Shown: piece after piece, positions 19,745-25,786 of the stretch
Position numbering within the stretch: position 1 is the stretch's first letter
Layout: every line of letters begins with the position of its first letter
NCBI GenBank assembly: GCA_946534715.1
Contig: CAMNCW010000041.1
Location: 62,001 to 126,000 of the forward strand
DNA length: 64,000 bases
Source: an uncultured Bacteroidales bacterium
GTDB lineage: Bacteria > Bacteroidota > Bacteroidia > Bacteroidales > Paludibacteraceae
Direction: 5' to 3'
Translations under genes and position numbers: made by a program
Notes under the pieces: model-generated
What the model was told of the DNA's origin: nothing
The model's input: the letters and a program-made list of their open reading frames with translations, nothing else
Databases searched by the model: none

Positions 19745-21052
19745 ATGGCTACATTTGTAATAGAAGGCGGACATAAATTACATGGATCTATCACCCCGCA
19801 AGGCGCTAAGAATGAGGCGCTTCAAGTGCTCTGCGCTGTTTTATTGACCAAAGAGACGGTCGTTATTGACAATCTCCCGAATATATTGGATGTGAATAAC
19901 CTCATCGACCTGCTGGCATCTATTGGCGTGACGGTGGAGAAACTGTCCAAAGGCAAGTTTGCTTTCACTGCGGCTAATCTCGACACAGCGTACCTGCGGA
20001 GTGCGGATTTTCTCAAGAAATGCAATAAACTCCGTGGCTCGGTTATGCTCATCGGTCCGCTTTTGGCGCGTCTGGGGGAAGTGACATATGCAAAACCCGG
20101 TGGTGACAAAATAGGTCGTCGGCGTTTGGACACGCATTTCCAAGGAATGGTGAACCTCGGCGCTACCTTTACATACGACCAGGACTTGCTCGCTTATCGT
20201 TTTGAGGGCAAGCACCTCAAAGGCTGCTATATGCTCTTGGACGAAGCTTCTGTCACCGGAACAGCGAACATTATTATGGCGTCTGTCCTTGCCGAAGGAA
20301 CCACTACCATCTACAATGCAGCTTGCGAACCGTACGTGCAGCAACTTTGCCGTCTCTTGAATAACATGGGTGCGAAGATCAGTGGAGTCGGTTCGAACTT
20401 GTTGACCATCGAAGGTGTGAAATCGCTTCACGGCGCACAACATAAACTCCTGCCGGATATGATTGAGGTCGGTTCGTTCATCGGCATGGCAGCTATCACC
20501 GGCTCTGAACTGCGTATCAAAGAGGCGGGAATAAAAGACCTTGGAATCATTCCCGATGCATTCCGTCGTTTGGGTATCCGCATTGAGGAAGAAGGAGATG
20601 ATCTCGTCATTCCGGCGCAGGAACACTATCAGATTGAATCGTTCCTCGATGGCTCTATTCTTACGGTAGCTGATGCCCCGTGGCCGGGTCTGACGCCGGA
20701 CTTGCTGTCTGTCCTTCTTGTGGTAGCCACACAGGCAAAAGGCTCTGTGCTCATCCACCAGAAGATGTTCGAATCCCGTCTTTTCTTTGTAGATAAGCTG
20801 ATTGACATGGGCGCACAGATCATCCTCTGTGATCCTCACCGTGCAGTTGTAGTCGGTCACGACCACACCCGCCAACTCAAACGCAATAACATGACTTCGC
20901 CCGACATCCGTGCAGGTATAGCCATGCTCATTGCCGCCATGTCTGCTGAAGGCACGTCTCGTATCGACCACATCGACCAAATCGACCGTGGTTATGAAGA
21001 CATCGAAAACCGGTTGAATGCGATTGGGGCTTGTATAAGGAGAGAGGAGTGA
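19745..21052 (+). CDS. murA: UDP-N-acetylglucosamine 1-carboxyvinyltransferase
   Basis: FVIEGGHKLHGSITPQGAKNEALQVLCAVLLT; EPSP synthase fold protein. Confidence 0.96.
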   Translation: MATFVIEGGHKLHGSITPQGAKNEALQVLCAVLLTKETVVIDNLPNILDVNNLIDLLASIGVTVEKLSKGKFAFTAANLDTAYLRSADFLKKCNKLRGSVMLIGPLLARLGEVTYAKPGGDKIGRRRLDTHFQGMVNLGATFTYDQDLLAYRFEGKHLKGCYMLLDEASVTGTANIIMASVLAEGTTTIYNAACEPYVQQLCRLLNNMGAKISGVGSNLLTIEGVKSLHGAQHKLLPDMIEVGSFIGMAAITGSELRIKEAGIKDLGIIPDAFRRLGIRIEEEGDDLVIPAQEHYQIESFLDGSILTVADAPWPGLTPDLLSVLLVVATQAKGSVLIHQKMFESRLFFVDKLIDMGAQIILCDPHRAVVVGHDHTRQLKRNNMTSPDIRAGIAMLIAAMSAEGTSRIDHIDQIDRGYEDIENRLNAIGACIRREE

Positions 21053-21114
21053 TTGTAGTGTGCAAATTTTGCATATAACAAGATAAACGTGCATTTTATA
21101 CACGTTAATAAGAA

Positions 21115-21606
21115 ATGATAGAATTTAAGCAAATATCAGTAGATTTTCCAGATGAGAAAGATGTTGAAGTACTTTCTTTGAGGATTTCAGGCACTTATTC
21201 TGGCGGTTTTGAGGGGACTTGCCGTAGTGTTTCTATCCATCAGATATGTGATTTCTTTGCAAAAGCAAAAGAAGGTGGTTTTTATTTTCGTTTAACAAAG
21301 GATCAATTAGTAAAAGAAGAGCTGGCTAATATGCCGCAACGTTGGATAGAAAGAGAACAAGAAAGGGAGAAAATGTATTTTGCTGAATATAAAGCAAAAA
21401 TGCAGGTTTTGCAACCGAATGATGTTCTGAAACCATATTGTTTCAATCTTTCTCTTCGGGACAAAAATCATAATAGTTATTTGACAGTGGTTTGGTTTGA
21501 TGAAGCGCCAAATCTTAATATGTCGCTAAATGACATCATTTTACCTCATATTCAGTCAATTAATTATAACGACTTTGCGAGGAAGATAGACTGGGATAAT
21601 TTTTAA
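21115..21606 (+). CDS. uncharacterised protein (163 aa), first gene of DUF262 cassette
   Basis: Continuous ORF, AT-rich, 17 nt upstream of the DUF262 gene; no family recognised by eye. Confidence 0.75.
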   Translation: MIEFKQISVDFPDEKDVEVLSLRISGTYSGGFEGTCRSVSIHQICDFFAKAKEGGFYFRLTKDQLVKEELANMPQRWIEREQEREKMYFAEYKAKMQVLQPNDVLKPYCFNLSLRDKNHNSYLTVVWFDEAPNLNMSLNDIILPHIQSINYNDFARKIDWDNF

Positions 21607-21623
21607 ATGAAAACAATAGTAAT

Positions 21624-23465
21624 ATGATAGATTCCGTACATGATTATCCGATTAGCCAGATTTTTAGTAAAGATGCTAATTGGTATTATTGCATCCCAAA
21701 GTATCAAAGGGAATATACTTGGTCATATTCTCATTGGGGTACGTTGTTTAATGATATAGAATCCAATGCTTTAGGTTACTTTATCGGTTCGATAATATGC
21801 ATAAACAACACGCACGATTCTTTCCAAATAAAGCAACTTGAAGTGGTGGACGGTCAGCAACGTTTGACCACATTAAGTATATTATTGGCTGCAATATATA
21901 CACAACTACAGAAATATAAAGATTATATTTCAGATGATGATATAGATGTGCTGCCATCAATAAGAAAATCGTTGCGCCGGAATGATGCACCTAATGGATT
22001 GATTTTACAACCACAAATACAAAATTACAATTCAGATGATTTCTCCTATTTGATGCAGGAAGCAGCTATCTTGGATGTAAATAAATTCGGGCGAAAAAAA
22101 GCAGTTTCTTATTATCCACAACGTAAACTCGGTAGATGCTATAATTATTATATTCAAAGGTTAGAATCTCTTCTTAAAGACATTCCCACAGAAGAGAAAG
22201 TATCTAAGTTATTGGATATTTACAATAAAATCAATCAAGCTGTTTTAGTAAAGATAGAGGTAAGTAGTCATACAGAGGCGTATATGCTTTTTGAAGCCTT
22301 GAATGACAGAGGTACGCCTCTTACTGCTATAGATTTGATGAAGAATACCATTCTTTCTAAGGCAAAAAGTAATGAAGAAGTAGATGCTTATTATGAGCAA
22401 TGGAAATCACTCATAGAATCGCTTACAGACGATTATCATACTCAAGAAAGATTCTTCCGTCATTATTATAATGCTTTTAAACAGAGACATAATAAACCTT
22501 TTATTTCTGAGGAAATCCGCAGTAAAGAACCTCTTGGCGTGATTGCAACTAAAACCAATTTGTTAAGCATATATGAGAAGTTAATCAATTTGAATTTAGA
22601 TGCTTTTATTACGGATATTACTAAATGCGGACAGATTTACGCTAATTTTGTAAATCCGAATATTGCTCCTATTCAATTTAAGGATGCGCTATTAGATTTG
22701 CTGCATGTACAAGCGGTGCCTGCAAATACCTTGTTGTTGTATCTTTTCTATTATCAAGAGGAACTGAACTTGTCAGACAAAATGCTGAACAAGATAATAA
22801 ATCTGATGGTAAAGTTTTTTGTTCGTCGTAATATTACGGACACTCCTAATACTTATACGCTTGATAGAATTTTTATGAGTATAATATCGAATATCAATGT
22901 CAATATATCAATAGGTGAAAATGGTATGTACGATATTATATATGAATCTTTATTAGAGGTGTCTGCTTCGGATAAAGATTTTGCTGAAAAATTATCCGGA
23001 AATATTTACGAAGAGAATGTCGGAGTCACTCGCTTTGTATTATGCAAGTTGTGCGAAAAATACATGACGACAGAAAATTGGACTAATCTATGGGAGCAGA
23101 ATATTGTGTCAAATAAAAAGATTTATGTCTGGACAATAGAGCATATTTTCCCCGAAGGCGCGAATATTCCCGAAAGTTGGGTTCAGATGATAGCAAATGG
23201 AGATAAAGAATTAGCTCAGGCATATAGAGCAGAATATGTTCACAAAATTGGCAACTTGACGATAAGTGGATTCAATAGTACATTGAGCAATAAATCTTTT
23301 GTCGATAAAAGAGATATGACCAATAAAAAAGGTCTATATGTCGGCTATAAAAACGGTTTGGAAATCAACAAGCTACTTGCTCAAAAGGAAAGTTGGACAA
23401 TAGAAGATATTAAGTCTCGGACATCAGTTTTTGTAAATGAACTAATAGAGATGTTTAAGTTATAA
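21624..23465 (+). CDS. DUF262 + DUF1524/HNH (GmrSD-type) endonuclease-like protein
   Basis: CIPKYQREYTWSYSHW, EVVDGQQRLTTLSILLAA (GmrS-like motif); C-terminal WTIEHIFPEG...HKIGNLTISGFNSTLSNKSFVDKR (GmrD HNH-like). Confidence 0.9.
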   Translation: MIDSVHDYPISQIFSKDANWYYCIPKYQREYTWSYSHWGTLFNDIESNALGYFIGSIICINNTHDSFQIKQLEVVDGQQRLTTLSILLAAIYTQLQKYKDYISDDDIDVLPSIRKSLRRNDAPNGLILQPQIQNYNSDDFSYLMQEAAILDVNKFGRKKAVSYYPQRKLGRCYNYYIQRLESLLKDIPTEEKVSKLLDIYNKINQAVLVKIEVSSHTEAYMLFEALNDRGTPLTAIDLMKNTILSKAKSNEEVDAYYEQWKSLIESLTDDYHTQERFFRHYYNAFKQRHNKPFISEEIRSKEPLGVIATKTNLLSIYEKLINLNLDAFITDITKCGQIYANFVNPNIAPIQFKDALLDLLHVQAVPANTLLLYLFYYQEELNLSDKMLNKIINLMVKFFVRRNITDTPNTYTLDRIFMSIISNINVNISIGENGMYDIIYESLLEVSASDKDFAEKLSGNIYEENVGVTRFVLCKLCEKYMTTENWTNLWEQNIVSNKKIYVWTIEHIFPEGANIPESWVQMIANGDKELAQAYRAEYVHKIGNLTISGFNSTLSNKSFVDKRDMTNKKGLYVGYKNGLEINKLLAQKESWTIEDIKSRTSVFVNELIEMFKL

Positions 23466-23477
23466 TTTCTAACAACA

Positions 23478-24275
23478 ATGTACGTCTATTGCGGAGAAGA
23501 TAGTATTGAGTATTTGGTGGATACGGAGGCAGAAAAGGTCTATGAACTCACTATAGGAGAAAATGAGGAAGTAATCAGTTATAGTGAGCATAGACAAGAA
23601 ATGCAGAATTTTCTTCGTTGGCGTCCATATCTGCAAATATTCAAAGAGACCAGCGATAGACCAAATTGGCTGAATTTAGAAATGAGTCCGTCAGATATTA
23701 AAGAAGCAGGTTGTTTGACACGAGATCTATATTTTGCTTTTGAATTAAAGAAATATAAAAAAGGACAAGATTTACTTGTGCAAATTGAGAATGTTGAGAG
23801 AGTTAGAAAACATAATGAAAGCTTGCAAACAATATGTCAATTCCTTGTGAACGAATTTTGTAAAGATAAACAAGCTCCTTTATGGGGACTCAAATATTGC
23901 GCAGCAAATGAAAATCAAAATGACAAAGAAAGACAAGCTTTTTGTGATACGATAGATTCTATCATAGAGATTGCATCAAATGGGTATAGTAAAGAAATTG
24001 CACATAATATGTATTTGCTATTAATGGCATATAAGTACGATTTTACCTATATTTGTAGATGTATTCGTCAGAATAACCTATTGGAAGGTTTTCATCAGTA
24101 TATCTTGTCGGATACGAACGCTTGTATTATAGGGGCTGAATTATATGATGCAATTACATTTTTAAAAGAAAATGGACAAAAACCTATTTATTTACTTACG
24201 GAAGAAATGGTAACGGATGGAATAGTAAAATATAGACAGTCATATCCGATATTAAAATGTCCTCCTTGTAATTAA
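23478..24275 (+). CDS. uncharacterised protein (265 aa), third gene of DUF262 cassette
   Basis: ORF begins 12 nt after DUF262 stop; same AT-rich composition; no family recognised. Confidence 0.75.
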   Translation: MYVYCGEDSIEYLVDTEAEKVYELTIGENEEVISYSEHRQEMQNFLRWRPYLQIFKETSDRPNWLNLEMSPSDIKEAGCLTRDLYFAFELKKYKKGQDLLVQIENVERVRKHNESLQTICQFLVNEFCKDKQAPLWGLKYCAANENQNDKERQAFCDTIDSIIEIASNGYSKEIAHNMYLLLMAYKYDFTYICRCIRQNNLLEGFHQYILSDTNACIIGAELYDAITFLKENGQKPIYLLTEEMVTDGIVKYRQSYPILKCPPCN

Positions 24276-24421: not shown

Positions 24422-24751
24422 ATGGCACAAGCGGAATTAAATATAACTATTGACAAACTATCTGGTAAGATCTACGGAAACAGCGATGTGTATATTGCGA
24501 ATCGTAACGGAAAAACGGTTATAAGTCATTATCCCAAACATCGTGATCCAAATTCACTCACGCCACATCAGCGTGACCTGAACACTTCTTTTGCCCAAAT
24601 ATCCAAGCAGGCAAAACTCGAACTCACAGATCCCGACAAACGTGCTGCTTGGCAGCAACGATATGACGAATACAAAGCTAATTATAACTCGAAAGACAAG
24701 TACTATTTTACCCTCCGTGGATTTGTAATCGCTCAACTCTCAAAAAAATGA
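24422..24751 (+). CDS. small uncharacterised protein (about 109 aa) upstream of RhuM
   Basis: MAQAELNITIDKLSGKIYGNSDVYIANRNGKTVISHYPKHRDPNSLTPHQ...; stop 3 nt before RhuM start. Confidence 0.7.
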   Translation: MAQAELNITIDKLSGKIYGNSDVYIANRNGKTVISHYPKHRDPNSLTPHQRDLNTSFAQISKQAKLELTDPDKRAAWQQRYDEYKANYNSKDKYYFTLRGFVIAQLSKK

Positions 24752-24754
24752 AAT

Positions 24755-25786
24755 ATGACACCATTAGATAAACAAACATTATTTCTTTTGTATGATGCGC
24801 CGGACAATACAGCGCAGGTGCAAGTAGTGGTACGAGATGAGACCATTTGGATGACTCAAAAAGCGATGGCTACGCTTTTTGATGTTAATGTGCCAGCAAT
24901 AAGCAAGCATTTAAAGAATATCTTTGAAAGTGGAGAACTTGAAGAGAAAGTGGTTGTTTCCAAAATGGAAATAGCCACTCCACATGGAGCTATAGCAGGA
25001 AAAATGCAGACAATAGAGACAAATTTCTACAATCTCGATGCGATTATCTCTGTTGGCTATCGTGTCAATTCTACCCGTGCAACGCGTTTCCGTCAATGGG
25101 CGACAAAGATTTTGAACGAATATATACGCAAAGGATTTGTGTTGGATGATGATCGTCTCAAACAAGGCAAAACGGTATTTGGGCAGGATTATTTCCGTGA
25201 ACTCTTGGAACGTGTACGTTCCATTCGTGCGAGCGAACGACGTATTTGGCAACAAATAACTGACATCTATGCGGAGTGCAGTATAGATTATGACCCGAAA
25301 GCACCGACTACGCGTGAGTTCTATGCAATGATCCAAAATCGTTTTCATTATGCCATTACAGGTCAAACAGCTGCGGAGATTATTTATACGCACGCTGACC
25401 ATGAGCAACCGAATATGGGACTCAAGACTTGGAAGAACTCACCTGATGGACGTATTTTGAAGTCGGACGTCACGGTGGCTAAAAATTATTTGGATGAGAA
25501 GCAAATCCGTCGTTTAGAGCGTGCAGTGACCGGATATTTTGATTATATAGAGGATTTAATTGAAAACGAAAATACATTTAATATGGAGCAGTTTGCCGCC
25601 AGTGTGAATGAGTTTCTTTCATTCCGACGCTATAATATATTGCCAGATAAGGGACGTATTTCCAAGGCGCAAGCGGATGAAAAAGCAGAGGCAGAGTACG
25701 ATATTTTCAATCGTACGCAACCGATTACTTCTGACTTCGATAGAGAAATTAAAAGAATGATAGAACAAGAAAACGGCAACATATGA
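24755..25786 (+). CDS. RhuM family (virulence RhuM-like) protein
   Basis: [39 protein letters not shown]...[37 protein letters not shown], hallmark RhuM. Confidence 0.9.

Follow-up and report, generated by a model that had tools for sequence, protein, structure and literature searches.

Does a GmrSD-type nuclease work with the small proteins encoded on either side of it, or do those genes simply lie beside it? The GmrSD family provides some of the commonest type IV restriction systems, and to our knowledge little is known about how its enzymes are restrained or assisted in cells. The question is raised by a cassette in a 64,000-nucleotide stretch of DNA from an uncultured Bacteroidales bacterium (the window), where ORF calling placed three plus-strand ORFs at 21115-21606, 21624-23465 and 23478-24275, separated by spacers of 17 and 12 nt. 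GC content is 34.1, 33.2 and 32.6% for the genes in order and 45.5% for the window, and both coordinates and composition agree with an earlier note on this DNA, which had described three closely spaced, co-directional, AT-rich genes between murA and dsbD. murA does lie 5′ of the cassette, ending at 21052, but dsbD is not the immediate neighbor on the other side, as a 113-aa ORF and a RhuM-family gene intervene. The 113-aa-class ORF directly downstream (24422-24751) has no known domain, and we rejected it as a fourth cassette member because its family is multicopy across the genus, being present in 53 of 61 genomes with up to 10 copies in each. The RhuM-family gene adjoining the cassette (24755-25786) matches PF13310 (E 5.7e-104) and the PADLOC candidate PDC-S05 (E 5.9e-158); in G543, a relative of the same genus, a RhuM-N/Fic-like gene, its family judged by eye, lies 5′ of the first cassette gene.

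The middle gene (21624-23465, 613 aa), which we call the type I core, encodes a fused GmrSD-family enzyme with a DUF262 (GmrSD_N) domain and a DUF1524 (GmrSD_C) HNH domain, matching Pfam PF03235 at E 2.4e-35 and PF07510 at E 5.7e-18. Its top PADLOC profile is HEC-06 (PDLC04155, E 2.1e-65), aligned between residues 9-610 of the protein and positions 11-557 of 562 of the profile, and the next PADLOC profiles are several called Orf5. The NTPase motif VVDGQQRLTT occupies residues 74-83, with DGQQR invariant among homologues, and the HNH blocks IEHIFPEG (505-512), KIGNLTISGFN (541-551) and NKSFVDKR (556-563) follow; in a four-sequence alignment, these motifs are mostly invariant. The DGQQR and HNH motifs define the GmrSD family (PMC4619093), and the core carries the (E/D)H...N...N signature of GmrSD_C, its middle motif being a variant of L(G/A)NLxLLxxxN. 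Both Pfam domains and the HEC-06 match thus confirm the fused DUF262/HNH nuclease that had been read from the sequence, but the further statement that the locus matches no known system went too far: the core resembles HEC-06 and BrxU, GmrSD enzymes for which activity without other proteins has been reported. The nuclease itself is an ordinary gene of a known kind.

Several known systems share this architecture. HEC-06, a GmrSD-like, Hma-embedded candidate in PADLOC, also has DUF262 and DUF1524 in one chain and matches the core over its full length; PMC11411939 reports, citing the original work, that it acts independently, and no partners like A and B (below) have been described for it. We found no Hma locus around the cassette, where the neighbors are murA, the 113-aa ORF, the RhuM-family gene and dsbD. 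BrxU (HEC-05), a type IV restriction enzyme within BREX, resembles the core in domain layout and motifs, but brxU of pEFER is a single gene between brxC and pglX, without A or B (PMC8565348), whereas the cassette has no BREX genes alongside, as had been noted before: brxC, pglX and pglZ are absent, and only a domain like the BrxC C terminus occurs, in the third ORF. BrxU alone is sufficient for defense (PMC8565348). In TgvAB, a two-gene GmrSD-family system of Vibrio cholerae, the GmrSD-type effector depends on a second protein (PMC11411939); that partner, TgvA, has a DUF262 domain of its own, whereas the flanking proteins A and B described below have none. SspE, the phosphorothioate-sensing protein, has the same two domains and is matched at the sequence level (6jiv, E 3.2e-6), but its profiles cover only stretches of the core and HEC-06 matches better; no ssp genes were seen in the immediate flanks of the cassette, in a genome that is 64% complete.

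The flanking genes had been described as two unrecognized partners, which holds for the first but only in part for the third. Gene A (21115-21606) encodes a protein of 163 aa whose family has no name and whose strong matches were seen only in the genus of the window, and like B it is absent from the four profile libraries searched (Pfam, PADLOC, NCBIfam and PHROG). Members of an A HMM occur in 10 of 121 genus genomes, and no credible member of A or B turned up outside the window's own genome when about 390 Bacteroidales genomes from across the order were searched with profiles; two matches to A in that search (E 0.003-0.005) lay in an amylase-like ORF and in a broken frame, neither of them credible. 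No structure or domain match points to a role for A: AlphaFold, run on 10 homologues, gave a mean pLDDT of 39, and an identity as Csx1_CARF was rejected, as the matches of short members (E 8e-4 and 0.002) fall under the curated cut-off and come from one sub-branch only. A-like sequence also forms the end of a 357-aa protein in G538, whose N-terminal region is nuclease-like with a weak, sub-threshold NOV_C match, and, more doubtfully, of a peptidylarginine-deiminase-like protein (family judged by eye) in G632. The dN/dS of A is 0.15-0.20. In G126, A carries a 1-nt frameshift, which may be an assembly error of that metagenome-assembled genome.

The third ORF, of 265 aa, is composite. Its first ~67 residues (23478-23681) form module B, a 67-aa acidic stand-alone protein in relatives, free-standing in G126, G087, G615, G623, G600 and G142, and its C-terminal ~197 aa (23682-24275) form module C, in which ORF residues ~76-255 match the BrxC C terminus. 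B is predicted to be a compact beta-rich domain (beta-beta-beta-beta-alpha-beta, pLDDT about 80-87), has a pI of 4.2-5.0 in all members but one and shows dN/dS values mostly of 0.14-0.23, with one pair at 0.43; the single match of its profile among PDB chains was a surface-anchored protein (E 0.005). C matches the PADLOC BrxC profile at positions 884-1060 of 1133 (E 6.2e-9; two relatives, E 9.5e-8 and 4.3e-7), and a three-sequence C HMM matches residues 948-1076 of a 1197-aa BrxC-like ORF (domain i-E 8.6e-20). Foldseek of the B-C model, in which the C half has a pLDDT below 50, found nothing in the PDB at E <= 0.001, no relatives of the whole third ORF were found on viral contigs, and a tblastn search of plasmids gave no relatives. 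The B-C fusion is common to the window and G543, where C has 83% protein identity and a dN/dS of 0.19; G645 has an intact core and has retained C, with only about ten codons of B left. A, B and C therefore all evolve under purifying selection, as constrained proteins.

B also occurs in other settings. In G643 (L237:7208-8020), its reading frame runs on into that of a GNAT acetyltransferase (PF00583, E 3.3e-9); judging by G600, the stop codon of B appears to have been lost in a short deletion. In G142 (L009:3013-8624), a 61-aa B protein lies 3′ of a HIRAN-domain gene (PF08797, E 1e-9), in a locus with McrB- and McrC-like genes (by eye) and a radical-SAM-like gene and without A or DUF262. A possible HIRAN-gene remnant between A and B in G600 and G643 is plausible from its position, B being directly preceded by KIEGDVYM there and in G142 alike, but its score (23.9 bits, E 0.16) does no more than equal the best of 100 shuffles, and the remnant is suggestive only.

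To see whether the core needs such neighbors, we can look at its homologues elsewhere. From 84,980 species genomes scanned, we took the best 80 homologues, which match over almost the full length and are spread over many phyla. At least two BREX genes lie near 31 of these 80, some homologues being placed between pglX and pglZ of BREX operons, and at locus L069 profiles confirmed BrxC, PglX, PglZ and BrxL around the homologue; the others stand beside 5mC methylases or alone. Five of the best 80 are near a 5mC methylase, one of them also with an HpaII-type enzyme nearby. Type I homologues near C5-cytosine methylases were noted at L029, L031, L045, L072, L092 and L104, some with HpaII-type enzymes, and such copies presumably spare the 5mC sites of their own host.

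The placement of close homologues inside BREX operons, together with the likeness of C to the BrxC C terminus, could mean that the cassette is the remnant of a decayed BREX operon, made of a BrxU-like gene and a brxC tail. We consider this very improbable and rejected it: the flanks hold no BREX gene, C is in frame with B and conserved in G543, and it also accompanies an unrelated nuclease (core II) in G543 and G645. The PglZ-domain match in the window's genome is a 520-aa frame, of a size seen at least once in nearly every member of the genus.

Relatives of A and B together were present in 2 of the best 80 homologue loci, both from the window's genus, and absent from the other 78, although some of those loci are short and absence is less reliable there. 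The core can therefore stand without A and B, and since BrxU is sufficient alone, the two are not generally needed. This also bears on whether the nuclease harms its host until infection and A, B or both neutralize it, as a promiscuous Panacea-type antitoxin would. Panacea antitoxins show such a pattern, one partner being conserved while the other is swapped (PMC10440598), and B is small and, in all but one member, acidic, as nuclease inhibitors can be. An antitoxin role is nevertheless improbable, because the core is widespread without A or B; in type II toxin-antitoxin systems the toxin is always found with its antitoxin. In addition, the cores of G126 and G645 are intact beside a broken A and a nearly lost B, respectively, and over-expression of BrxU is not toxic (PMC8565348).

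Among 121 genomes of the genus, strong A was found in 10, strong B in 9 and both in 8 (Fisher p 4e-10, with genomes treated as independent); the nine cassettes share ancestry, and they therefore amount to about four independent associations. Every one of the nine stand-alone A genes belongs to a cassette with a DUF262 gene, and eight of these cassettes also contain B, confirming that the flankers are conserved next to DUF262 homologues in this genus. DUF262 genes are themselves common there (80/121 genomes), most of them without A and B. Type I cores occur in the order A-core-B in the window and G126 and as core-B-A in G087; core II is found as A-core-B in G615, G623 (split over two contigs) and G543 and as A-core-C in G645; cores III and IV are found as core-A-B in G643 and G600, respectively. 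A and B are thus found in one locus with each of the four types of DUF262 core. Core types I, II/III and IV have 17-20% identity between them, and II and III 42%. All contain GmrSD_N, and type IV scores above threshold for GmrSD_C as well; types II and III carry an HNH block of the DIHHI type, with HNH_4 matches that stay below threshold. The type IV core of G600 is HEC-05 (E 4.9e-176).

Comparison of these cassettes indicates that the nuclease has been exchanged. At the same site in G126 and G615, DNA identity is ~97% for A and 99% for B, and protein identity of the cores is 19%. In G643 and G600, A and B are 99.2% identical over 665 nt, and the adjoining cores are 17% identical. Between the window and G543, A is 82% and the B-C gene 87% identical, the cores are unrelated and the bounds of homology are gene bounds, so that exchange breakpoints coincide with gene boundaries. 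Divergence from a common ancestor could not produce this pattern, but a replaced nuclease could, and in the first two pairs the exchange is, on these identities, recent. G087 and G600 differ in gene order, with DNA identities of 87% for A and 84% for B, so rearrangement has taken more than one form. Tandem REP-like repeats (GTATCCGCCATATATGGAGGAT...) separate A from a putative RAYT-type transposase gene (weak Y1_Tnp match) in G126 (L007:11380-11620) and G615 (L235, upstream of A), a possible route of cassette movement.

Because A and B remain while the nuclease is swapped, and are absent from 78 of the best 80 loci, they are not, in the strict sense, dedicated partners of this particular nuclease (sensor, regulator or inhibitor), as the earlier note had proposed. 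The main rival explanation, possible though rather unlikely, is that the nuclease works alone like BrxU and that A and B, two small genes independent of it, hitchhike at the flanks of a defense hotspot, where recombination swaps the cargo. A and B are missing beside most core homologues, BrxU is reported to be active as a single gene (PMC8565348), as are HEC-05 and HEC-06 according to PMC11411939, B stands beside an McrBC-like operon in G142, and the order varies among A-core-B, core-B-A and core-A-B. However, a mere hotspot should capture other cargo too, and in the nine genomes whatever is found with both A and B is a DUF262-HNH enzyme, of which at least four unrelated versions occur; A and B also remain together despite reordering, and both are under purifying selection.

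The reading we prefer, though we consider it evenly balanced between true and false, is that the cassette holds an interchangeable type IV nuclease with A and B as shared accessory or control proteins. A further proposal, held only tentatively, is that A and B serve GmrSD-type nucleases in general as a pair for control or delivery; this would be a multi-gene type IV restriction system with a constant pair and a modification-sensing nuclease swapped like a cartridge through recombination in the genes beside it. The frameshifted A of G126, the mostly lost B beside an intact core in G645 and the B without A or DUF262 in G142 all count against a partnership, and action of A and B is not required to explain defense, because BrxU alone protects (PMC8565348).

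If the shared-accessory reading is correct, the locus would be a modification-dependent restriction cassette with the middle protein as effector. By analogy with BrxU and SspE, which are the basis for expecting NTP binding by DUF262 and cutting of modified DNA by HNH (PMC8565348, PMC10952713), the DUF262 domain would bind and hydrolyze NTP and so gate the HNH domain, which would cut incoming DNA that most likely carries modified bases. From the exchange pattern, we infer that A and B would act, physically or functionally, on features common to all GmrSD-type enzymes, most likely NTP-dependent gating or DNA engagement, and unrelated enzymes could thus be inserted next to or between them. The swap itself would come about by homologous recombination within the genes for A and B, changing recognition while the partners stay, and C, a BrxC-type helical module fused to B here, would probably add a protein contact.

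What appears to be new is the behavior of the flankers, with constant A and B families and nuclease exchange between them, of which we found no description in the literature searched, a limited library. A recurrently acquired nuclease-protease pair (PMC12799240), recombined with unrelated defense proteins, and the Panacea antitoxins (PMC10440598), one module with unrelated toxins, share the principle alone; their proteins differ, the A/B pair has no assigned activity, and the swapped cores here all belong to one superfamily. If the association is functional, constant A and B beside four unrelated GmrSD enzymes would suggest that the superfamily as a whole is under shared regulation, and the same A and B with different nucleases would provide natural matched pairs for testing it. 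It would also mean that bacteria can change restriction specificity by swapping a whole nuclease between constant arms.
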